From IMG/VR virus record IMGVR_UViG_3300025636_000018, positions 1 to 30,225 of that record: a stretch of 30,225 nucleotides of DNA, one strand, 5' to 3'. Below are positions 1,767 through 30,225 of the stretch, in pieces. Origin of the DNA: a virus. A program made the translations under genes and the position numbers. Position 1 is the first letter of the stretch. Every line of letters begins with the position of its first letter. A model generated the notes under the pieces. The model was not told the DNA's origin and made no database searches. It saw only the letters and a program-made list of their open reading frames with translations.

Positions 1767-1906
1767 TGATAAAATTAATTTTAGATAGTTTAAAATACGT
1801 AAACGGAGAAACAGAAAACATAAGAATAGCAAAGGGAAAGCATAAGCTCCCAACAACTTTAAAAGAGGGATTTAAAGCACTAAAACAAGAAATAAGATGG
1901 GAATAG
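1766..1906 (+). CDS. Small hypothetical protein (46 aa), tail region
   Basis: This 46-aa ORF starts with the A of the preceding TAA stop (TAATG) and runs 10 bases into the tape measure gene. It begins MIKLILDSLKYVNGETENIR and ends KALKQEIRWE. It is basic and has no membrane segment. Coupled start and end, plus the lack of any gap, suggest that it is translated. I do not recognise the family. Its place between a tail tip gene and the tape measure makes a small tail accessory protein plausible, but that is inference. Confidence 0.6.
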   Translation: MIKLILDSLKYVNGETENIRIAKGKHKLPTTLKEGFKALKQEIRWE

Positions 1907-3777
1907 AGAAAACAATAAATATAAATGTTAAATCTAGTAATGCAGAAAAGGAGCTAAAAAAAACTAATAAAGCACTAGATAAAACTTCAAGAGCCGGGAA
2001 CAGTGCAAGTACTGCTGCAACTAAAACTGGAGCTGCAATGGGTGGACTGGCAACTGCTTCTGGAACTGCTGCTGGAGGTTTAGCATCTGTTGGTGGTGCT
2101 ATTGGTGGTGCTGCAATTGGATTTACTACTTTAAAAACTAAAATACAAGCTGCTATTGTAAGTCTTAAGACTATGCGAGTAGCTGTAATGGCTACAGGAA
2201 TAGGTGCGTTATTAATTTTATTAACTTCATTAAAACAAGCGTTTACAAGTTCAGAAGAGGGTCAAAATAAATTTGCAAAATTAATGGGTGTTATCGGTGC
2301 TGTTACAGGTAACCTATTAGACATTTTAGCAGATTTAGGCGAGGGTTTAATATCAGTATTTGAAGACCCAAAACAAGCTATAATAGATTTTAAAGATTTA
2401 ATAGTTGAAAATATCACTAATAGATTTAATGCAATATTAGATACAGTTGGTTTTTTAGGGAGTGCAATTAAAAGCGTATTTAAAGGAGATTTTGATGAAG
2501 CTTTGGAGTCAGCAAAAAAAGCTAGTAGCAGTTTTGTAGATAGCTTTACAGGGGTTAAAAATAGTATAGATAAAGCTAAAGAAGCCACAAAAGGTTTTTT
2601 AGAAGAACAAAAAAAAGAAATAGGTCAAGCAGCAGCAGTTGCAGATATGAGAGCAAAAGCTGATAAAATAGAACGTAAGTTAATTGTAGACCGCTCAAAG
2701 CTAGAAAGCGAAATAGCAAACTTAAGGCTAAAATCAAGACAGGAGGAAGAATTTAGTGCTGCAGAACGAAAACAAGCATTGTTAGATGCTCAAAAACTAG
2801 AAGAACAATTACTAGACAAAGAAACTGAATTTTTAGAATTAAGAAGAGATGCACAAATTTTAGAAAATACATTTAGCAGAAGTAATAAAGAAAATTTAAC
2901 AAAAGAAGCTGAAGCTATTGCAGCAGTAAATAGACAACAAGCTGCTCGTGCAAATGCAGCAAGGCAAGTGCAAAGAGAAGTTAATACTATCTCAAAACAA
3001 ATAGAAGCAGAAAACAAAAGGATAGCAAACGAACAAAAAGCTGCAAAAGACAAAGAAGTTGCAGAAGAAAAAACAAGACTTGATGCGATTCAAAAGATAA
3101 GAGATGACTTTGCTCTTAAACAAAAGGAGAAAGAAGCAGAATCAGAGGTTGAAAAAATTAACCTTGAAGAGCAAAAGAAACTTTCAGAGCTTGAAAAACT
3201 AGAAGCTTCGGAAGAGCAAAAACTCGAAGTATTAAAATATTATTCAACATTAAGAACAGAAGCAGAAGAGAAAGAAAATAAGAAAAAAGAAGAGATTGAG
3301 AAATTAAGAAAAAAACAAACTCTTGCAGATGCTCAAGGAACATTCAATAGTATAGCACAATTGGCTGGTAAAGATAGTAAAATTGGAAAAGCAATGGCAA
3401 TTGCAAGTGCAACAATAAGTGGAGTTGAGGGTGTTCAGAACGCTTATTCAACCGCTCAAAAATCTCCAATAACAACATTTTTTCCAGCATATCCAGTAGT
3501 CCAGGCAGCACTCGCTGGAGCTGTAGCAGCAAAAAACATTGCAGCAATAAAAAGCGTTAGTGCTGGAGGTGGAGGATCAACAAGTGTTCCAGTTGCTTCT
3601 GGAGGTGGAGCTTCTCAACCACCATCTTTTAATGTAGTAGGTGCAACAGAAACAAGCCAGTTAGCAGAAGCAGTTGGAAGCCAAACTCAACAGCCAGTTC
3701 AAGCTTACGTTGTTTCAAATGATATCACAACCGCACAGAGCTTAGAAAATAACATTGTTGAGGGTGCAACTTTATAA
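1897..3777 (+). CDS. Tail tape measure protein
   Basis: At 626 aa this protein sets tail length and is ejected through the tail tube. The N-terminus (residues 1-50) is polar and Ala/Lys-rich, followed by Gly/Ala-rich hydrophobic helices (about 50-75 and 92-112, with VMATGIGALLILLTSL). Residues about 235-500 are a long Lys/Glu/Ala coiled coil (many EEQK, AEEK and EKEA repeats). Residues 505-580 form a second Ala-rich hydrophobic stretch, and a Gly/Ser-rich linker (AGGGGSTS) leads into a QP-rich tail. This layout is typical of tape measures. At roughly 0.15 nm per residue a tail near 95 nm would follow (family rule, not measured). The usual neighbour, the tail chaperone, is not adjacent: it lies about 5.5 kb upstream across the join. 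Confidence 0.88.
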   Translation: MGIEKTININVKSSNAEKELKKTNKALDKTSRAGNSASTAATKTGAAMGGLATASGTAAGGLASVGGAIGGAAIGFTTLKTKIQAAIVSLKTMRVAVMATGIGALLILLTSLKQAFTSSEEGQNKFAKLMGVIGAVTGNLLDILADLGEGLISVFEDPKQAIIDFKDLIVENITNRFNAILDTVGFLGSAIKSVFKGDFDEALESAKKASSSFVDSFTGVKNSIDKAKEATKGFLEEQKKEIGQAAAVADMRAKADKIERKLIVDRSKLESEIANLRLKSRQEEEFSAAERKQALLDAQKLEEQLLDKETEFLELRRDAQILENTFSRSNKENLTKEAEAIAAVNRQQAARANAARQVQREVNTISKQIEAENKRIANEQKAAKDKEVAEEKTRLDAIQKIRDDFALKQKEKEAESEVEKINLEEQKKLSELEKLEASEEQKLEVLKYYSTLRTEAEEKENKKKEEIEKLRKKQTLADAQGTFNSIAQLAGKDSKIGKAMAIASATISGVEGVQNAYSTAQKSPITTFFPAYPVVQAALAGAVAAKNIAAIKSVSAGGGGSTSVPVASGGGASQPPSFNVVGATETSQLAEAVGSQTQQPVQAYVVSNDITTAQSLENNIVEGATL

Positions 3778-8001: not shown

Positions 8002-8351
8002 TGAAGTTAATTGGAACAAGCGGAAGTAAATCTTTTAAGATAATTCCAAGAGAATACATTACTGGTAGCATCACTGTTAATTTAAAAAGTGAGAGCACTG
8101 GATTAAATATAAGCATAACTCCAACAGCTTCAACAGACAGAAATTACTCAACTTTTACAGCAGATTTTGGAACGCTTACGGAGGGAGATTTCTATACGTT
8201 GGAAGTAAAGAATGGAAGCTCTGTAATTTATAAAGACAGAGTATTTTGCACAGACCAAACAATTAATCAATCCAACAACGATTATTACTCTGTTAATAGT
8301 GGAGAGTATGTCCAGGAGGATAGTTATGACAACGATTACATAATATTATGA
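8001..8351 (+). CDS. Small virion-associated hypothetical protein (116 aa)
   Basis: I chose the ATG at 8001 rather than an in-frame GTG at 7950, because the latter adds 17 residues translated from the regulatory gap. The protein starts MKLIGTSGSKSFKIIPREYI and then GSITVNLKSESTG, two short beta stretches, and ends in an acidic Tyr/Asp tail (EYVQEDSYDNDYIIL). The body resembles a small immunoglobulin-like beta-sandwich (YSTFTADFGTLTEGDFYTLEV). It overlaps the portal gene by four bases (ATGA), so the two are co-translated. I infer a head or connector accessory protein without a known name. Confidence 0.6.
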   Translation: MKLIGTSGSKSFKIIPREYITGSITVNLKSESTGLNISITPTASTDRNYSTFTADFGTLTEGDFYTLEVKNGSSVIYKDRVFCTDQTINQSNNDYYSVNSGEYVQEDSYDNDYIIL

Positions 8352-10168
8352 ATGATTTAAGAGTAGTAAATCTAAGCACATATACCAGTCCAGAGATTGT
8401 GGAGAAATCCAACAAAGAGTGGGTTGCTTATGGAAACGACAATAATTATTTCCAGTATCTTATTGACAGATATAATGGAAGTCCAACAAACAATGCTATT
8501 ATCAACGGAGTATCGGAGATGATATATGGAAAAGGATTGGATGCTTTAGATTCAAACAGAAAGCCAGAGCAATACGCAAAGATGATTTCTTTGTTTCATA
8601 AGGATTGTGTAAGAAAGCTCTGTTACGATTTGAAGCTTATGGGACAATGCTCCATGCAAGTGATATACTCAAAGGACAGAAAGACTGTTGCAAGAGTAGA
8701 GCATATTCCAGTGGAGAACTTGAGGGCAGAGAAGTGCAATGAGAAAGGAGAGGTTGAAGCGTATTACTATTCAGATAACTGGACTAAAGTAAAGAGAGCG
8801 GATGACTGCACAAGAATACCAGCTTTTGGTTATTCAAATGAATCAATCGAGATTGTATATGTAAAACCGTATCGAGCTGGATACAAATACTATTCCTCTC
8901 CAGATTATCAAGGTGGTCTTCAATACGCAGAGCTTGAGGAAGAGATAAGCAACTATCATCTCAATAACATCCTCAATGGTTTAGCACCAAGTATGCTAAT
9001 TAATTTTAACAATGGTACACCTAACGCCGAAGAGCGACAAATGTTAGAAAACCGTATTTACTCTAAATTTTCTGGCAGCTCCAACGCTGGTAAGTTTATC
9101 CTGGCTTTTAACGACAATCCAGAAAGTGCAGCAACTATTGAGCCAATCCAGTTAAGTGATGCTCACAATCAGTATCAGTTTTTATCAGATGAGAGCGGTA
9201 AGAAAATAATGGTAGCACACAGAGTAGTTTCTCCAATGCTTCTGGGAATCAAGGACAGCTCTGGACTTGGAAATAATGCAGAGGAACTTAAGACTGCAAG
9301 TACTTTAATGGATAACACTGTTATTAGACCATTTCAGACACTTTTGATTGATGCGTTTGACCAGATATTAGCTTACAACAGTATAGCTCTTAAATTATAC
9401 TTTAAAACGCTTCAACCACTTGAGTTTACTGATTTGGAGAACGTAGTTGATAAGGAAACAAGAGAAGAGGAAACTGGTGTTAAATTAAGCAAAGAGCTTC
9501 CAGATGAAATGGGGAGTGATATTGCAGATGCTTTGATTGAGCTCGGAGAAGATGAAGAGGAGCTCTTAAAGGACTTTGATATTATTGATGAGCGTGAGGT
9601 AAGTTATGAGCATGAAGAGGAGCTTGATGAAGTTATAACTGATTTAAACAAGCCAGAGGAAAAGAGTTTGCTTTCTAAGATTTGGGAGTTTGTAAGCACT
9701 GGAAGTGCAAAGCCATATCAAAAGAGTGATCAAGATGGAACTTCTAAGCAATCAAGAGAAGAGGGAAATGAATTTCTTGTAAGATATATGTATGCACCAG
9801 CAAGAACAAAATCTACTTCAAGACAATTCTGCTCAAAAATGGTAAGTGCTAAGAAAGTTTACAGAAAAGAGGACATTGTTGCAATGGAAAACAAAGCAGT
9901 AAACGCTGGATTCGGAAAAGATGGAAGCGATACTTATTCTATATGGCTTTATAAAGGTGGTGCAAGATGTAATCACAAATGGTTTAGAAAGACTTACGTT
10001 AGAAAAGAGGGTGCTAAAGGACTCGGAGATGCAATAAGCACGACAGAAGCCAGAAAGAGAGGTTTTAAGCCAGAAGCAAACGCACAGAAAGTTCCAGTTG
10101 CACCAAAAGATATGAAGTATAAAGGATATACAGCAGAGTATTGGAATAAAATGAAATTTAAAAACTAA
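8348..10168 (+). CDS. Portal protein with additional C-terminal Cys/His domain
   Basis: The 606-aa protein has the portal layout: WVAYGNDNNYFQYLIDRYNG near the start, the long clip and stem helices in the middle, and QPLEFTDLENVVDKETREEE near 370. Portals form the dodecameric ring for DNA entry and tail joining. After an acidic linker (about 385-445) a separate domain of about 130 residues follows. It contains FLVRYMYAPARTKSTSRQFC, KVYRKEDIVAME, DTYSIWLYKGGARCNHKWFRK and a basic end. Similar domains often sit on phage head morphogenesis or protease proteins (MuF-like C-termini), so this looks like a domain moved onto the portal. The gene lies after the capsid gene instead of beside the terminase. 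It meets the next gene at a TAATG junction. Confidence 0.85.
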   Translation: MNDLRVVNLSTYTSPEIVEKSNKEWVAYGNDNNYFQYLIDRYNGSPTNNAIINGVSEMIYGKGLDALDSNRKPEQYAKMISLFHKDCVRKLCYDLKLMGQCSMQVIYSKDRKTVARVEHIPVENLRAEKCNEKGEVEAYYYSDNWTKVKRADDCTRIPAFGYSNESIEIVYVKPYRAGYKYYSSPDYQGGLQYAELEEEISNYHLNNILNGLAPSMLINFNNGTPNAEERQMLENRIYSKFSGSSNAGKFILAFNDNPESAATIEPIQLSDAHNQYQFLSDESGKKIMVAHRVVSPMLLGIKDSSGLGNNAEELKTASTLMDNTVIRPFQTLLIDAFDQILAYNSIALKLYFKTLQPLEFTDLENVVDKETREEETGVKLSKELPDEMGSDIADALIELGEDEEELLKDFDIIDEREVSYEHEEELDEVITDLNKPEEKSLLSKIWEFVSTGSAKPYQKSDQDGTSKQSREEGNEFLVRYMYAPARTKSTSRQFCSKMVSAKKVYRKEDIVAMENKAVNAGFGKDGSDTYSIWLYKGGARCNHKWFRKTYVRKEGAKGLGDAISTTEARKRGFKPEANAQKVPVAPKDMKYKGYTAEYWNKMKFKN

Positions 10169-14377: not shown

Positions 14378-14507
14378 TAACTCTCTACGGTTTTAATCTC
14401 TATTTTTTATTTATTATCTATATTTGATTAAAGATATAATCTTTGTTTTTTGTTATCAAAGAGTTAACCAACTCGGAAAGAGCCACCTTGATAGGTGGTT
14501 TTTTTTT
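14378..14507 (+). ncRNA. Structured 3' region or small RNA between ninG and next operon
   Basis: The 209 bases without a gene after ninG hold several nested inverted repeats. TAACTCT (14378-14384) can pair with AGAGTTA (14460-14466). AAAGAT-ATA-ATCTTT lies at 14430-14444. GAGTT-AACC-AACTC lies at 14461-14474, then the terminator hairpin follows. The second and third choices exclude the first, as in switching RNAs. It may be just a 3' untranslated region; a separate transcript is unproven. Confidence 0.35.
14481..14507 (+). terminator. Rho-independent terminator after ninG
   Basis: AGCCACCT pairs with AGGTGGTT (one G-T pair) around a TGAT loop and runs into nine T. This is the strongest hairpin of the early region and closes the ninG unit. 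Confidence 0.9.
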
Positions 14508-23538: not shown

Positions 23539-24129
23539 ATGGAACTGATTGATATAAGAAAAGTAATAAAGAATCCAGACAATCCAAGAATCATAAGGGA
23601 TACAAAGTATCATAAACTTGTTAAAAGCATTAAAGAGTTTCCAGAGATGCTTAAGCTTAGACCAATTGTTGTAAACAATGATATGGTTGTGCTTGGAGGT
23701 AATATGAGATTGAGAGCTTGTAAAGAAGCTGGATTGAAAGAGGTCTGGATAATGAAAGCAGACAATCTTACTCCAATGCAAGAAAGAGAGTTTGTCGTAA
23801 AAGACAATGTAAACTTCGGAGAGTGGGACTGGGATTTATTGGCTAATGAATGGAACTCCGTTGAGCTTGAGGACTGGGGTATGGATAACTGGCAGAATAT
23901 GGATGACATTGAAACCAGTGATGCTTTCTCACTTCCAGATGGAGAGAAAGAGCCATTTCAACAGCAGACTTATACTCTTGCAGATAAACAAGTGGAGTTC
24001 ATAAAAGAAGCAATAAAAGAAATAAGACAAACAGAGGAGTTCAAATACGTTGAAACTTTTGGGAATGAGAACTCAAATGGAAACGCTTTATATTTATTAG
24101 TAAGCCAATGGGTAGAGCAAAGGAAATAA
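23539..24129 (+). CDS. ParB-like protein 2, coupled to Mom-like enzyme
   Basis: The N-terminal 70 residues carry a ParB-type domain: IKNPDNPRIIRDTKYHKLVK (10-29), SIKEFPEMLKLRPIVVNNDM, then VVLGGNMRLRACKEAGL (51-67), with the GGNMRLRA signature. After QEREFVVKDNVNFGEWDWDL (79-98), an element typical of ParB domains joined to DNA methylases, the rest is acidic (residues 100-150) and helical. The gene ends 22 bases inside the Mom-like gene, so the pair is co-translated. A role as guide or target recognition partner of the modification enzyme is inferred. Confidence 0.7.
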   Translation: MELIDIRKVIKNPDNPRIIRDTKYHKLVKSIKEFPEMLKLRPIVVNNDMVVLGGNMRLRACKEAGLKEVWIMKADNLTPMQEREFVVKDNVNFGEWDWDLLANEWNSVELEDWGMDNWQNMDDIETSDAFSLPDGEKEPFQQQTYTLADKQVEFIKEAIKEIRQTEEFKYVETFGNENSNGNALYLLVSQWVEQRK

Positions 24130-24773
24130 TCGTAAAAGTTATAAACTCTAAAGTAGCGAATGCTTTTGTAAAAAAACATCACTATTCTGGAAAGGTTGTT
24201 AATATGAGCAGTCTGCACTTCGGATGCTTCCTGGATAACCAATTGCATGGAGTAATGAGCTATGGAAGTCCAATGGATAAAAGAAACGTTCTTCCTTTAG
24301 TGGATTCTGGTGAAACAGATATAAACAAGAGATGGAATGAGATGTTAGAGCTTAACAGAATGGCTTTTGATGATTATCTTCCAAAGTATTCAGAGAGTAG
24401 ATGTATTGCAATCAGTATCCGCATGATCAAAAAGAATGCACCGCAGATTAAATGGATATTAAGCTACTCGGATGCAACGCAGTGCGGAGATGGAACAATA
24501 TACAGAGCCAGCGGATTTAAGCTAACACAAATAAATAAAAACGGAACAATATATCAACTTGCAAATGGAGAGATAGTAGCGAAGCGTGGAGATAGTAAGT
24601 ATGACTTTAAAGGAGCTAAAGCTCTTGAAGGATTCCAAAATAGGTACATTCTCTTAATAGATAAAAGCTGTAAGATAGTGCCAGAGATATTAGACTTCAA
24701 AATGATTGATGAGCTTGGAGCTGGTATGTATAAAGGAGAAAAAATAACCCTCCAGGAGAGGAGGGAAACTTAG
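24108..24773 (+). CDS. mom: Mom-like DNA modification enzyme
   Basis: The 221-aa protein resembles phage Mu Mom, a GNAT-fold enzyme that changes adenines in phage DNA to a carbamoylmethyl form and so blocks restriction enzymes. Visible are KKHHYSGKVV (22-31), a Mom-like metal-binding HHY, ELNRMAF (81-87), SESRCIAISIRMIKKNAPQI, then KWILSYSDATQCGDGTIYRA with D122 and Y132 in the SxxDxxxxGxGTIYxAxxF pattern. In Mu Mom, corresponding His-Tyr, Asp and Tyr residues matter for activity. The close of the gene holds a CCCTCC/GGAGGG hairpin. ParB-like protein 2 is its upstream partner. Confidence 0.75.
   Translation: MGRAKEIIVKVINSKVANAFVKKHHYSGKVVNMSSLHFGCFLDNQLHGVMSYGSPMDKRNVLPLVDSGETDINKRWNEMLELNRMAFDDYLPKYSESRCIAISIRMIKKNAPQIKWILSYSDATQCGDGTIYRASGFKLTQINKNGTIYQLANGEIVAKRGDSKYDFKGAKALEGFQNRYILLIDKSCKIVPEILDFKMIDELGAGMYKGEKITLQERRET
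24748..24765 (+). other. GC-rich hairpin at end of Mom-like gene
   Basis: CCCTCC (24748-24753) pairs perfectly with GGAGGG (24760-24765) around AGGAGA, with no T run after it. It lies nine bases before the tRNA-like element and may be an RNA structure or part of a packaging site. Confidence 0.4.
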
Positions 24774-24907: not shown

Positions 24908-25264
24908 ATGAACAAAACTGAACAACATAAAAAAGCAATAATTGAAGCACTGGAGAAATCTCTGGGTGTGGTAACAACTGCATGTAAGAAAGTTGGAGTA
25001 GGAAGAACAACATTTTATGGATGGTTAAAAGATGATCCAGAGTTTGCTGAAAAAGTAAATGATATCCAGGAAATCGCTCTTGACTTTGTTGAGAGTAAAT
25101 TATTTGAAAATATCAAAGATGGTAAAACAGCAGAGATGATCTTCTACTTAAAGAGCAAAGGAAAGAAAAGAGGATACGTTGAAAGACAAGAAATAACTGG
25201 AGCTGATGGAATGCCAACTGATTTTAAAATTGAGATAATTGACAAGATCAAGGATACAGACTAA
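24908..25264 (+). CDS. Terminase small subunit
   Basis: The 118-aa protein has an N-terminal helix-turn-helix, EALEKSLGVVTTACKKVGVG, then RTTFYGWLKDDPEFAEKVND (about 13-52), typical of small terminases that recognise the packaging site. A long helix follows (EIALDFVESKLFENIKDGKT), then AEMIFYLKSKGKKRGYVERQ, the known end of this family. The overlap of 26 bases with the large subunit gene is in line with coupled translation. Confidence 0.85.
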   Translation: MNKTEQHKKAIIEALEKSLGVVTTACKKVGVGRTTFYGWLKDDPEFAEKVNDIQEIALDFVESKLFENIKDGKTAEMIFYLKSKGKKRGYVERQEITGADGMPTDFKIEIIDKIKDTD

Positions 25265-26402
25265 CATTGTCTACCGCCATTTGCAGAACAGTACTGGCAA
25301 AATAGCAATACACGAGGGTGGAACAAGAAGTGGAAAGACTTGGAATGTTTTACTCTTCCTTGTTTTTGACTATTGCTTAAGCTCTAAAGGAAGAACATTG
25401 ACTATTTGCAGAAAGACTTTCCCAAGCGTTAGAGCTACTGTCATGCGTGATTTCTTAACTATATTGAAGCAGTATGGACTTTATAGAGAAGAGAATCATA
25501 ATAAATCAAATAGTGAATACAAGCTAAATGGAAATCTCATTGAATTTATTTCTGTTGATCAACCGCAAAAGATAAGAGGTCGCAAAAGAGATATCTTATT
25601 TATTAATGAAGCCAATGAGCTGGACTATGAAGATTGGCAACAGTTAGTATTCAGAACGCAAGAGAAAATCATAATTGATTACAATCCATCTGATGAATAC
25701 CACTGGATATATGACAAGGTTATCCCAAGAGATGATGCTGACTTTTATCGAACAACTTATTTAGACAATCCATTCCTGGAGCAGAGCATCGTTGAGGAGA
25801 TTGAGCGTTTAAAGGAAACAGATGAACAATACTGGCAAATATACGGACTTGGACAGAGAGGAATCAGTAAAGCAACTATCTTTAAGTATTATGAAACTGA
25901 TAAGATTCCATATGATGCAGAGTTTGTGAGCTTTGGAGCTGATGCTGGATATACAAATGACCCAAGCACTTTAGTATCTGTATATAAGAAAGATTACAAT
26001 CTATATATCCAAGAGCATCTTTATAGAACAATGATGACAACAAAGGATTTAAGCGACCATTTTAAACAAGTGGGAGTTGGGAGGAATACTATCTTTTTTG
26101 ATTCAGCAGAGCCACGTTTAATTGATGAATTGAGGAGAATGGGACACAATATACAACCATCATTAAAAGGAAGAGATTCTGTAAATGCTGGTATTGATTT
26201 ATTGAAGAGATTCAAGATACATATTACAAAGGATAGTGATCATGCAATCCAGGAGTTTAGAAACTATAAATGGCAAGAGGACAGAAGTGGAAAGCTGACA
26301 AATAAACCAGTGGATAAGAACAACCATATTATTGATGCTGTCAGGTATGCAACTTACTCATTATTAAGCAGACCGAACTTTGGTAAATATGCTGTCCATT
26401 AA
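25239..26402 (+). CDS. Terminase large subunit
   Basis: The 387-aa protein is the packaging motor ATPase and nuclease (PBSX family look). The start is TTG at 25239; a stop codon lies directly before it and no ATG precedes the conserved IQTNIVYRHL. Walker A is GGTRSGKT (27-34), Walker B is DILFINEA (118-125), with LSSKGRTLTICRKTFPSVRA (47-66) between. The nuclease domain has FGADAGYTND (232-241, D235) and the last acidic site in HIIDAVRYATYSLL (D366). The length is a little short of the usual 400-450 aa. The next gene is not the portal but a tail gene, which is unusual. Confidence 0.9.
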   Translation: MTRSRIQTNIVYRHLQNSTGKIAIHEGGTRSGKTWNVLLFLVFDYCLSSKGRTLTICRKTFPSVRATVMRDFLTILKQYGLYREENHNKSNSEYKLNGNLIEFISVDQPQKIRGRKRDILFINEANELDYEDWQQLVFRTQEKIIIDYNPSDEYHWIYDKVIPRDDADFYRTTYLDNPFLEQSIVEEIERLKETDEQYWQIYGLGQRGISKATIFKYYETDKIPYDAEFVSFGADAGYTNDPSTLVSVYKKDYNLYIQEHLYRTMMTTKDLSDHFKQVGVGRNTIFFDSAEPRLIDELRRMGHNIQPSLKGRDSVNAGIDLLKRFKIHITKDSDHAIQEFRNYKWQEDRSGKLTNKPVDKNNHIIDAVRYATYSLLSRPNFGKYAVH

Positions 26403-26449: not shown

Positions 26450-27094
26450 ATGAATTACAAAATTACAATACCAACTTCATTAAATGAGATAACTCTGGGA
26501 CAGTATCAAGAGTTTGTTAAATTAAGTGAGCTCCCAGAAGCAGAGCTCCAGTTGAAAGCAGTTGAAATCTTCTGCAATGTGCCAAAGGAAGCAGTTAGAG
26601 GAATGAGAGCGACTGATATTGCAGAGATATCTGAAATCATAAACAATATGTTTGATACTAAGCATCAGCTCATTAATAGCTTCAAATTAAATGGTCAAGA
26701 GTATGGATTTATTCCATCACTGGAAGATATGACGTTTGGAGAGTATATTGACTTAGATACTTTTATCGGAGACAATGATAATCTGCACAGAGCTGTAAAC
26801 GTACTCTTTAGACCAATGGAGATGAAGAGAGGAAACAGATATTTCATAAAAGAATACAATCCAGATAGTTTTGAGATTGCAAAAGAGTTTCCTTTGGATG
26901 CAGTGCTTGGTTCTATTGTTTTTTTTTACAATTTAGGGAAAGACTTGTCTACAGTTATGATCAACTCTTTGGACAAGAAGAACGAGCAGATTTTAGCGGA
27001 GTATCTAATTTCACAAGAAAATGGGGATGGTACAACTCCATCTTTGCAATCGCTAACGGAGATATTACAAAGTTTGAATATATCTCTAAATTAA
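26450..27094 (+). CDS. Tail assembly chaperone, short (zero-frame) form
   Basis: The 214-aa zero-frame product starts MNYKITIPTSLNEITLGQYQ and carries a tail chaperone-like body (EFVKLSELPEAELQLKAVEI, SLEDMTFGEYIDLDTFIGDN). Past the T9 run it reads YNLGKDLSTVMINSL and ends SLTEILQSLNISLN. In Bacteroidota phages this position carries a gpG-like chaperone for the tape measure. The C-terminal 55 residues overlap a second coding frame, a sign of translational frameshifting (see the long form). The chaperone lies next to terL, far from the tape measure. Confidence 0.75.
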   Translation: MNYKITIPTSLNEITLGQYQEFVKLSELPEAELQLKAVEIFCNVPKEAVRGMRATDIAEISEIINNMFDTKHQLINSFKLNGQEYGFIPSLEDMTFGEYIDLDTFIGDNDNLHRAVNVLFRPMEMKRGNRYFIKEYNPDSFEIAKEFPLDAVLGSIVFFYNLGKDLSTVMINSLDKKNEQILAEYLISQENGDGTTPSLQSLTEILQSLNISLN

Positions 27095-27180
27095 ATGTGC
27101 ATGAATGTTTAACATTTTTAACTTTCTCTAAAGAAAAGAATGAGTTGGAAGCCAGACAAATAAAAAGTAAATTCAAATGA
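26450..27180 (+). CDS. Tail assembly chaperone, long form by -1 frameshift
   Basis: At 26919-26927 nine T follow a G. The slippery heptamer T TTT TTT (26920-26926) permits a -1 slip: codons GTT TTT TTT change to frame -1 and continue at TTA (26926-26928). The -1 frame stays open for 84 codons to TGA 27178-27180 and ends in a perfect ATGA overlap with the next gene. The added part reads LQFRERLVYSYDQLFGQEER, then FTRKWGWYNSIFAIANGDIT and NVHECLTFLTFSKEKNELEA, the WGWYxxxxxxAxGDIxKF pattern I know from chaperone C-termini in this phage group. The fusion would be 243 aa. This parallels lambda G/GT, but with a much higher T content. Confidence 0.75.
26919..26927 (+). promoter_or_regulatory. Slippery T9 run for -1 frameshift
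   Basis: Nine consecutive T within the chaperone gene; the zero-frame heptamer is T TTT TTT at 26920-26926. Polymerase slippage on the same run is an alternative way to reach the -1 frame. Confidence 0.6.
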
Positions 27181-27647
27181 GCAATACAGGAGTAAGAGGA
27201 TTTTATCTATTAATTGAAGCAATCAAAAACCAGCTTCTTAATGATGTCAATGTAAATACAGTAACCACTGGAGATATTTATGACATTGATTTATCAAAGC
27301 AGAGCATCTTTCCTTTGTGCCATATAATTATAAACAACGTAAGCACTCAAGAGCAAACGCTAACTTTTAACGTAAGTATTCTTGCAATGGATATCGTTGA
27401 TGAAAGCAAAGAGGAAACAAGTGATATATTCAGAGGTAATAATAATGAACAAGATATTTTGAATACTCAACTTGCTGTTCTTAATAAGCTGGTAATGGTT
27501 TTGAGAAAAGGAGTTCTTTACTCGGATCAATATCAACTGGATGGAGATGCAAATCTTGAGCCATTCTATGAGCGGTTTGAGAATCGACTTGCTGGATGGG
27601 CAGCAACATTTGATGTCTTTGTTAGAAATGACATTGATATATGTTAG
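27177..27647 (+). CDS. Tail terminator/completion-like protein
   Basis: The 156-aa protein has MSNTGVRGFYLLIEAIKNQL, FPLCHIIINNVSTQEQTLTF, NVSILAMDIVDESKEETSDI, an EQDILNTQLAVLNKLVMVLR helix and a closing RLAGWAATFDVFVRNDIDIC. This alpha/beta layout is that of minor tail proteins of gpU or Neck-like kind. It overlaps the chaperone long form by four bases and the next gene by seven bases. I set it as a completion protein by position and pattern. Confidence 0.55.
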   Translation: MSNTGVRGFYLLIEAIKNQLLNDVNVNTVTTGDIYDIDLSKQSIFPLCHIIINNVSTQEQTLTFNVSILAMDIVDESKEETSDIFRGNNNEQDILNTQLAVLNKLVMVLRKGVLYSDQYQLDGDANLEPFYERFENRLAGWAATFDVFVRNDIDIC

Positions 27648-28171: not shown

Positions 28172-29284
28172 ATGTCAAAGATTAATGCAAGAAGTCCATA
28201 TTATATAAATATAACAGCTACAAATTTACGTAGAGTAGATATGGAGTTATATGTATACACTGGAACGCAAACAACAGACAGAGATAATAAATTCACATTG
28301 ACATCTTTTGCAATAAATGAAAATGTAACTTTTGAGATAGGAGAAATAGTAAGAGATTATCTTTTACAGACTTTTGATGGAGATTATGAAACTTTAAATG
28401 TTTGGGTAGATTATAGAACAAAATTAACTACAACAGTCTCACAGCAAGATTATGGTGCGTTTACTCAATTAGTAGGTTTTGATGGATACGGATACTATGA
28501 AGATGAAGCAAATCCAGAGAATGATTCTGGACTTTTACAGAGCAACAATATTGTTGTTAAACTTGATGATGCTCCAGCAACTATTCCAGTTGATACATCA
28601 ACAGCAAATCAAGTAACTTATGAGCTTAATGGAGAGCTTGTATATACTAAAGCAATAAGCAGTAGCTTAGAAAGTGATGAGCAAATAGAATACGTTACTA
28701 ATGGAATTAATGGTGCAGATGATTTTGAAAATAGAGTAATACAAGATGGAGGAACTTTTGAGGACAGTTCATGTTTGCAAGAGTTTTCAGATGATTTCAT
28801 TTTATTTGATTTTGATACTATTTATATTGATACAGATGATGGAGTTATAAAGCTAACAGTTGATAATATCCAGGAGTGCAAATATCAACCGCACAAAATT
28901 ACTTTTGTAAATAAGTTTGGAGCTCTTCAAGATATATGGTTTTTTAAGAGATCAAATGAAACTCTGACAACTAAAGATGAATCATTCAAAAGAAACATCA
29001 TTGTCAATGGAGCTTATAATTCAAGTAGACATCAAGATAAAACTCTTACAAAAAATGGAAGTGAAAAGCTAACTTTAAACACTGGCTTTTATCCAGAGGA
29101 ATACAATGAAGTTTTTAAACAGTTACAGCTTTCGGAAGATTGCTGGATTGAGATTGAAAATAAAACTCTTCCTATAAAAATAAGCGGTGGAAGTTTCTCT
29201 TATAAAACAGTTATCAATGATAAGTTAATTAATTATACAATTGACATTGAGTTTGCTTTTGATACTATAAACAATATACGTTAA
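28172..29284 (+). CDS. Tail protein (370 aa)
   Basis: A beta-rich protein starting MSKINARSPYYINITATNLR, with ELYVYTGTQTTDRDNKFTLT, VTFEIGEIVRDYLLQTF, a middle of 150 residues with many Asp and Thr, and a late KITFVNKFGALQDIWFFKRS, TKDESFKRNIIVNGAYNSSR and LNTGFYPEEYNEVFKQLQLS. I have met this type, always beside the tail tip gene of flavobacterial phages. Its role may be distal tail or baseplate hub. It meets the next gene in TAATG. Confidence 0.6.
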   Translation: MSKINARSPYYINITATNLRRVDMELYVYTGTQTTDRDNKFTLTSFAINENVTFEIGEIVRDYLLQTFDGDYETLNVWVDYRTKLTTTVSQQDYGAFTQLVGFDGYGYYEDEANPENDSGLLQSNNIVVKLDDAPATIPVDTSTANQVTYELNGELVYTKAISSSLESDEQIEYVTNGINGADDFENRVIQDGGTFEDSSCLQEFSDDFILFDFDTIYIDTDDGVIKLTVDNIQECKYQPHKITFVNKFGALQDIWFFKRSNETLTTKDESFKRNIIVNGAYNSSRHQDKTLTKNGSEKLTLNTGFYPEEYNEVFKQLQLSEDCWIEIENKTLPIKISGGSFSYKTVINDKLINYTIDIEFAFDTINNIR

Positions 29285-30225
29285 TGCAGATAATAGAGCT
29301 TTATATAAAAGGATACAAGAGGTTAAATGGTGCAGTAAATTCTACAGCAGTTAATAAACTTATTGATGGCACTGCTAAATTCACAGAAACTATTGAAGTA
29401 GGAGATTTAGTTACAAACCAAGAAACAAATAGCACAGCAACAGTAACAGCTATTGACAGTGATACTCAGTTAAGTTTATCTATTGATTTGTTTACTACAA
29501 CACAAGTGCCTTATAGAATTACAAGTGATTATTTTAGAGCTGATTTATTTAAGGATGAGAGCATAAGTATTACGGATAGTTTGTTAAATGTAAGAGATAT
29601 TAAAAAAGTCTTTACACCTTTTTCTAAACAGTTTAATCTTCCAGCATCTAAGCTAAACAACAAACTATTTAGGCACTATGAAAATACAGATATAGTAGAT
29701 AGTTTTGATGCTAGATATAGGCACGATGCAATTATTAAACTAAATGGAATTGATTATAAAAAAGGAAAGATACAGTTTGGTAGCGTACAATTAAAAAACA
29801 ATAAAGCGTATTCATATAAAGTAACATTTTTTAGTGATACAGTAGATTTAAAAGAAATACTAGGAGATAGTAAACTGTCTAGTTTAAACTATGGGGATAT
29901 AAGCGAGTTTATATACAGTCAAGCCAACATACTAGATATGGCTACTAAAGATGATGCTTACCTGGAAGCTAGTGGAGTTTTAAATAGTTCAGATATTAAA
30001 GTACCTAATATACACCATAGTAAAAATATGAGGTTTAGTAATAGTGGGTATAAAGACAATGCAACAGGAACTAGTTTAGAGTGGACTGATTTAAAACCTG
30101 CTATAAGATTAAGAGCAATAATTCAAGCTATAAACAGAACATTCCCACAAATTAATATAACAGGGTTTTTAGACAGCATACAGATACAAGATATTTATTT
30201 ATGGTTACATAGAAACGAGGGATAT
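29284..30225 (+). CDS. Tail tip / baseplate-like protein, N-terminal part (continues at base 3)
   Basis: The frame from ATG 29284 is open to the window end and continues in the same frame at base 3. It starts MQIIELYIKGYKRLNGAVNS, has an SH3-like segment (TIEVGDLVTNQETNSTATVT, 37-56), the string SITDSLLNVRDIKKVFTPFS (94-113) with KQFNLPASKLNN, and HDAIIKLNGIDYKKGKIQFG, a pattern common to large tail tip proteins of this phage group. The joined product is 855 aa with a C-terminal FnIII domain. Confidence 0.8.
   Translation, partial: MQIIELYIKGYKRLNGAVNSTAVNKLIDGTAKFTETIEVGDLVTNQETNSTATVTAIDSDTQLSLSIDLFTTTQVPYRITSDYFRADLFKDESISITDSLLNVRDIKKVFTPFSKQFNLPASKLNNKLFRHYENTDIVDSFDARYRHDAIIKLNGIDYKKGKIQFGSVQLKNNKAYSYKVTFFSDTVDLKEILGDSKLSSLNYGDISEFIYSQANILDMATKDDAYLEASGVLNSSDIKVPNIHHSKNMRFSNSGYKDNATGTSLEWTDLKPAIRLRAIIQAINRTFPQINITGFLDSIQIQDIYLWLHRNEGY
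30086..30225. repeat. Terminal overlap copy 2 (same as 1-140)
   Basis: This matches bases 1-140 except for T/C at 30091, A/T at 30093 and T/A at 30099. In frame these change CTT to TTA (both Leu) and CCA to CCT (both Pro). The remaining 126 bases are identical. Confidence 0.9.

Follow-up and report, generated by a model that had tools for sequence, protein, structure and literature searches.

A conserved run of nine or ten T's as a likely transcriptional slippage site in a putative tail assembly chaperone gene of Bacteroidota phages

Within a viral DNA of 30,225 nucleotides (IMG/VR virus record IMGVR_UViG_3300025636_000018, analysed over its whole length and referred to here as the window), we studied a gene whose two predicted products share an N-terminal part and diverge at a run of nine T's. 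The comparison of this locus with its relatives makes it likely that an entire lineage of tailed phages of Bacteroidota produces a chaperone fusion by programmed RNA polymerase slippage on runs of nine or ten T's (T9-T10). The arrangement is known in kind, as a frameshifted tail chaperone, and unusual in mechanism; it is real, conserved and functional. Frameshifting in tail chaperones is a classic example of ribosomal recoding, and all tail chaperones described so far use, to our knowledge, ribosomal frameshifting. A limited literature search, which does not prove absence, returned no paper on transcriptional slippage in a tail chaperone. If our reading is true, these phages, a large and abundant family of aquatic (marine and freshwater) Bacteroidota viruses, offer a large, natural and testable viral case of programmed transcriptional slippage, for which the isolated phages P12024L and P12024S are at hand. 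The annotation is also corrected, since the annotated records that we examined either separate the -1 domain or lack it. The features of the window that bear on the argument are the following.

1897-3777, + strand: tape measure protein gene (phrog_3336, E 3.5e-15)
8348-10168: portal gene
25239-26402, + strand: terminase large subunit, the gene directly upstream (Pfam Terminase_3, E 1.3e-25)
26450-27094, + strand: 0-frame ORF of the short form, putative tail assembly chaperone, 214 aa (phrog_32199, a family without functional annotation, E 6e-19)
26919-26927, + strand: T9 run, the putative slippage site, codons GTT TTT TTT TAC
26920-26926, + strand: T_TTT_TTT heptamer inside the T9 run, in the zero frame
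26926-27180, + strand: extension in the -1 frame, 84 codons and a TGA stop, with a coding-type substitution pattern and a helical model (pLDDT 80)
26926-27094, + strand: stretch read in both frames, both of them constrained
26934-26936, + strand: TAG closing the third (+1) frame, two codons past the run
27177-27647, + strand: next gene, 156 aa (phrog_30964), its start overlapping the -1 stop as ATGA

A preliminary description of this DNA had reported a T9 run with T_TTT_TTT in frame at 26920-26926, a -1 frame that stays open for 84 codons and fills an 82-base gap up to an ATGA overlap, and two forms of 214 and 243 aa with 159 residues in common; coordinates read from the sequence and ORF arithmetic bear out each of these points. 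The -1 stop TGA at 27178-27180 overlaps the ATG of the next gene at 27177-27179, and 82 bases (27095-27176) lie between the 0-frame stop and that gene. The fused form would consist of the 159 common residues followed by 84 from the -1 frame, with the junction sequence VFF-LQFRERL... and a KWGWY motif in the C-terminal helical domain of the 243-aa form.

Relatives were collected by scanning IMG/VR with the 0-frame and -1 peptides, singly and as alignments. The first set comprised 389 loci with a readable junction, all of them with the -1 relation between the two frames, and carried T9 in 360 cases and T10 in 29. Because some contigs were fetched by two queries, cluster counts are a safer figure than locus counts: the 389 loci form 76 clusters below 75% identity on the -1 peptide, 64 with T9 and 12 with T10. 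In L010 and L102, which are one contig, the 0-frame ORF is interrupted before the run by an upstream indel. A second set, searched with two distant 0-frame proteins only, carried T9 in 157/157 readable loci. This brings the relatives to 546 loci, 517 with T9 and 29 with T10, and none with a shorter or longer run. They reach down to about 30% identity and include prophages as well as two isolated phages of Nonlabens, P12024L and P12024S (about 31% identity), in which the run reads CTT TTT TTT TAT and is followed by a homologous -1 frame. Two further Bacteroidota genome contigs, one of them chromosome-sized, carry the locus with T9, and a scan of Bacteroidota genomes for prophage relatives found few, every one with T9 or T10. 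The copy in the chromosome-sized contig (L654, around 1976) is a probable prophage of a mostly free-phage family. Homologs of the -1 frame, whose absence had been named beforehand as a reason to abandon the frameshift, thus exist in hundreds of related phages. The position of the junction on T9 or T10 is not due to chance.

Across these relatives the run occupies all three codon phases, and its total never falls below nine. We found NTT TTT TTT TAY or TGG in the same place, GGT, GAT or AGT followed by TTT TTT TTG, TTT TTT TTT CTG, ATT TTT TTT TTG, and several T10 forms; at least nine changes of run type are needed on the tree of 74 N-parts. An in-frame T_TTT_TTT is present in every relative, and the number of T's before and after it among the 76 clusters is (1,1) in 58, (1,2) in 9, (0,2) in 5, (2,1) in 2, (0,3) in 1 and (2,0) in 1. 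The T's outside the heptamer sum to at least two in 76/76 clusters. Loss of the T before the heptamer goes with a longer run behind it (6/6 clusters versus 9/70; Fisher p 2e-5, with relatedness not removed). T_TTT_TTC, T_TTT_TTG alone and other heptamers were never seen at the junction among the relatives. In these genes TTC makes up 20% of Phe codons, and GTA and ATA are preferred; since all three are used in the genes and never occur inside the run, the run does not result from codon usage. As a control, we inspected 17 P2-like chaperones (32-100% identity), which have T6G in 14 cases, T7G in 1 and another site in 2. For the P2-type chaperone family the shift has been documented as translational, with published site variants T6G, T7G and T7C (PMC3931495).

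We therefore favor RNA polymerase as the agent, given that the run is kept at nine or more through changes of phase, with P2-type sites at T6-T7. Two further lines of evidence point the same way, the first being the avoidance of A and T runs of eight or more in the other genes of these phages. Compared with synonymous shuffling, the 337 other ORFs of the same loci contain no run of at least nine T's versus 6.9 expected, 2 runs of T8 versus 8.8, and 5 runs of at least nine A's versus 27.6, with T6 near normal (118 versus 134). Selection against A/T runs of about nine, found in many genomes, has been considered a mark of a slippage-prone RNA polymerase (Baranov et al., PMC1088944); against our reading, slippage at nine is apparently suppressed in some AT-rich bacteria (PMC1088944). 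The avoidance could come in part from DNA replication slippage or ribosomal errors. The window's only other long T runs, at 14499 (T9) and 15665 (T8), lie between listed ORFs, consistent with avoidance inside genes.

The second line is that there is no conserved stimulator and that the third frame is closed at once, which likewise favors the polymerase. We looked for stable RNA downstream of the run among the relatives and obtained a mean folding z of about 0, and RNAalifold found no common downstream structure in 77 close relatives. An 8-bp hairpin located 16 nt past the run in the window was considered as a stimulator and rejected, as it is unconserved in the same 77 relatives. A downstream structure is a common stimulator of ribosomal -1 shifts, and not an obligatory one. 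The +1 frame is closed 0-3 codons past the run in 75/76 clusters, versus 28-36% elsewhere in the gene, by TAG, TAA or TGA at differing places among clusters; this stop is partly fixed by conserved residues of the overlapping frames (LG in the 0 frame, FR in the -1 frame). RNA polymerase slippage yields one, two or more extra bases, so that a closed third frame is beneficial; ribosomal -1 shifting has no such need.

We infer both the agent and the product ratio, and propose the following sequence of events, with RNA polymerase slippage adding one U as quite likely the main mechanism of the frame change. A faithful mRNA with U9 would give the 214-aa form. Slippage of RNA polymerase on the A9 template would add one extra U in a fraction of the transcripts, and a ribosome reading such a transcript normally would enter the -1 frame and make the 243-aa form. 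Transcripts with two extra U's or with one missing would run into a stop within few codons and give the common N-part only. Transcription slippage is known to be efficient at nine A's or T's (PMC5009743), and on A/T runs it consists mostly of one-nucleotide insertions, which increase exponentially as the run lengthens (PMC5574713). At other slippage sites of bacteria about 15-55% of the product is shifted (PMC4256274), so that the long form may exceed lambda gpGT in abundance. If the mechanism is true, the host polymerase, and not ribosomal frameshifting, would determine the proportion of short and long form, which would already be fixed in the mRNA; this proportion would depend on the host RNA polymerase and lie far from the 30:1 of lambda (PMC5009743).

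The alternative that survives best, although we deem it unlikely, is programmed ribosomal -1 frameshifting on T_TTT_TTT, with two tRNA-Phe slipping back by one base as in P2 E+E' (T TTT TTG). The heptamer in frame in every relative speaks for it; every T9 contains this site, ribosomal slippage there may add to the product, and tail assembly chaperones as a rule rely on ribosomal -1 shifting, P2 itself on a T run (PMC3931495). The -1 direction is compatible with slippage of either the ribosome or the polymerase. However, ribosomal shifting leaves unexplained why a run of at least nine T's is kept in any codon phase, why T_TTT_TTC, a lone T_TTT_TTG and other heptamers are lacking, and why the third frame is closed. 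It also has to do without a conserved stimulator, P2-like sites remain at T6-T7, and in Escherichia coli U_UUU_UUU is reported to be a weak site for the ribosome, far less prone to shifting than A_AAA_AAG (PMC5009743). Six tests distinguish in part between the two mechanisms, and all the discriminating evidence favors RNA polymerase. Thus, where the preliminary description had proposed a ribosomal -1 shift, the frame change at the run holds, and the ribosome as its agent is less well supported, given the conserved run length, the weak heptamer, the lack of a conserved stimulator and the closed third frame.

Whichever the agent, a frame-shifted fusion protein is very probably made, as judged from the relatives and their substitution patterns. 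Substitution rates between pairs of relatives were compared by codon position. In the upstream part, read in a single frame, the rates are 0.113/0.074/0.378; where the -1 frame alone is read they are 0.147/0.102/0.396 by -1 codon position, thus resembling the upstream 0-frame part; and in the overlap (26926-27094) they are 0.131/0.191/0.198 by 0-frame codon position. These rates indicate that the -1 frame genuinely codes for protein and that the 0-frame tail is kept too. The pattern is that of two frames constrained in the overlap and two products maintained. The programmed frame change at the T run into two proteins with a common N-part, as initially described, is supported both by the relatives and by these rates. 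AlphaFold models were built from the family, with the N and -1 domains folded separately and not as one 243-aa chain. The N domain (residues 1-160) has pLDDT mostly between 80 and 90, the 0-frame ORF model 78 overall, and the -1 domain is predicted as helices with pLDDT 80. Searches with the N domain and with the -1 domain share matches among predicted proteins of uncultured tailed phages, in which both domains lie in a single chain (A0A6J5N0W0, A0A516L5A8, A0A6J5SVK3, A0A6J5MY57, A0A6J7WDG4, A0A6J7WJY4, A0A6J7XA66 and A0A6J5N3F3). The presence of both domains in one predicted chain elsewhere therefore supports the fusion.

It is very improbable that the -1 frame is instead a separate small gene that starts inside the overlap by reinitiation. 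In P12024L the annotation does assign the -1 frame a short ORF of its own, P12024L_41. Against this, the -1 peptide of the window contains no Met, and a check of ATG, GTG and TTG in the window found no usable start codon ahead of its conserved part; sequence conservation extends right up to the T run, and the predicted phage proteins named above match both domains in one chain. A sequencing error, phase variation or a decayed gene, with a true run one base longer or shorter and a single ORF, is scarcely credible: homopolymers are error-prone, but the same T9 or T10 recurs in two isolates, in a chromosome-sized contig and in independent assemblies that number in the hundreds, the two frames always stand in the -1 relation, and the 0-frame tail shows conservation, with both frames constrained.

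The gene belongs to phage morphogenesis and most likely encodes a tail assembly chaperone. This role is plausible from architecture and position; there is no clear homology, and we do not claim descent from known chaperones. The name given to it in the preliminary description is plausible on these grounds. Its two-product architecture is that of the lambda G/GT type, with a common N-part and a form extended by a -1 shift, and it follows the terminase in the late operon. A Pfam search gave no match for the gene's products, the -1 domain matched no PHROG or Pfam family, and PDB sequence searches gave no match. Weak profile matches were obtained to phrog_166 'tail protein' (E 0.035 and 0.0085), and a weak structural match in BFVD is named tail assembly chaperone (E 0.019). 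Fold comparison of the 0-frame model with the PDB gave no match either (best Foldseek E 0.57; best VIA Z 3.0), a result of little weight. Flavobacterium phage 6H was considered as a relative that slips at a different site (TGT TTT TTC) and rejected, the match being structural and weak and the frames ambiguous. The weak structural relative R9VW65 apparently corresponds in 6H to a 191-aa gene (L472 10020-10930, - strand) that ends near TGT TTT TTC; behind it lie 304 bases that carry no annotation and are open in other frames, which may reflect a further frameshifted gene or errors of sequencing.

Direct adjacency to the tape measure gene was not found: about four other genes lie between the two, across the contig ends. 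If the contig represents a permuted circle, the tape measure gene would be downstream of the chaperone across these ends. A phrog_38559 gene is split between the ends (29284-30225 and 1-1766), which match different parts of phrog_38559 in frames without a direct join, so that the contig looks like an almost complete genome in permuted form. Just upstream of the terminase genes, the window encodes a Mom-like DNA modification protein (24108-24773; phrog_1384, E 1.8e-44). In P12024L, a gene annotated with a sigma-70 region 2 domain (L159 457-936) lies a few genes before the terminase, and late transcription may therefore use a phage sigma factor.

Compared with known systems, the locus resembles tail chaperones in its products and slippage genes in its junction. 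In chaperones of the lambda G/GT type the two products are made in a fixed ratio; each binds the tape measure protein, and the tube protein is recruited by the extension. Like lambda G/GT, HK97 and P2 E+E', the gene described here has a short form and a -1 extended form with a common N-part in a late operon, and an extension of about 80 aa that forms a small domain of its own. It differs from the lambda G/GT type in having, in place of a heptamer, a homopolymer of at least nine T's throughout the family, in that both frames are coding for about 55 codons, in the lack of clear sequence homology, and in that the tape measure gene is not adjacent. Of the marks of a ribosomal site it has the in-frame heptamer, with neither a downstream structure nor a heptamer-length site with free flanks; of those of a slippage gene it has a conserved run of at least nine T's at the junction, no stimulator, a closed frame and the avoidance of such runs elsewhere, and it would be expected to yield mRNAs of mixed run length. 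The homologous gene of P12024L and P12024S (Inhavirus), also located after the terminase, has CTT TTT TTT TAT and a homologous -1 frame; it differs in its identity of about 31%, in a 0-frame tail of only 25 codons and in its annotation, which shows two hypothetical ORFs as unrelated. Thermus thermophilus dnaX and Citrobacter rodentium tssM likewise rely on about nine or more A's or T's, without a stimulator and with a set product ratio (PMC5009743, PMC4256274), and in dnaX, as here, stop codons lie close behind the run in the other frames; both, however, are cellular genes with A runs, and in dnaX slippage makes the shorter product. In mxiE of Shigella flexneri, overlapping ORFs are joined by one added nucleotide at a U run and the longer product needs slippage (PMC1088944), as we propose here; mxiE encodes a regulator of a secretion system, whereas the present case is a phage morphogenesis gene with a run conserved across a phage family.
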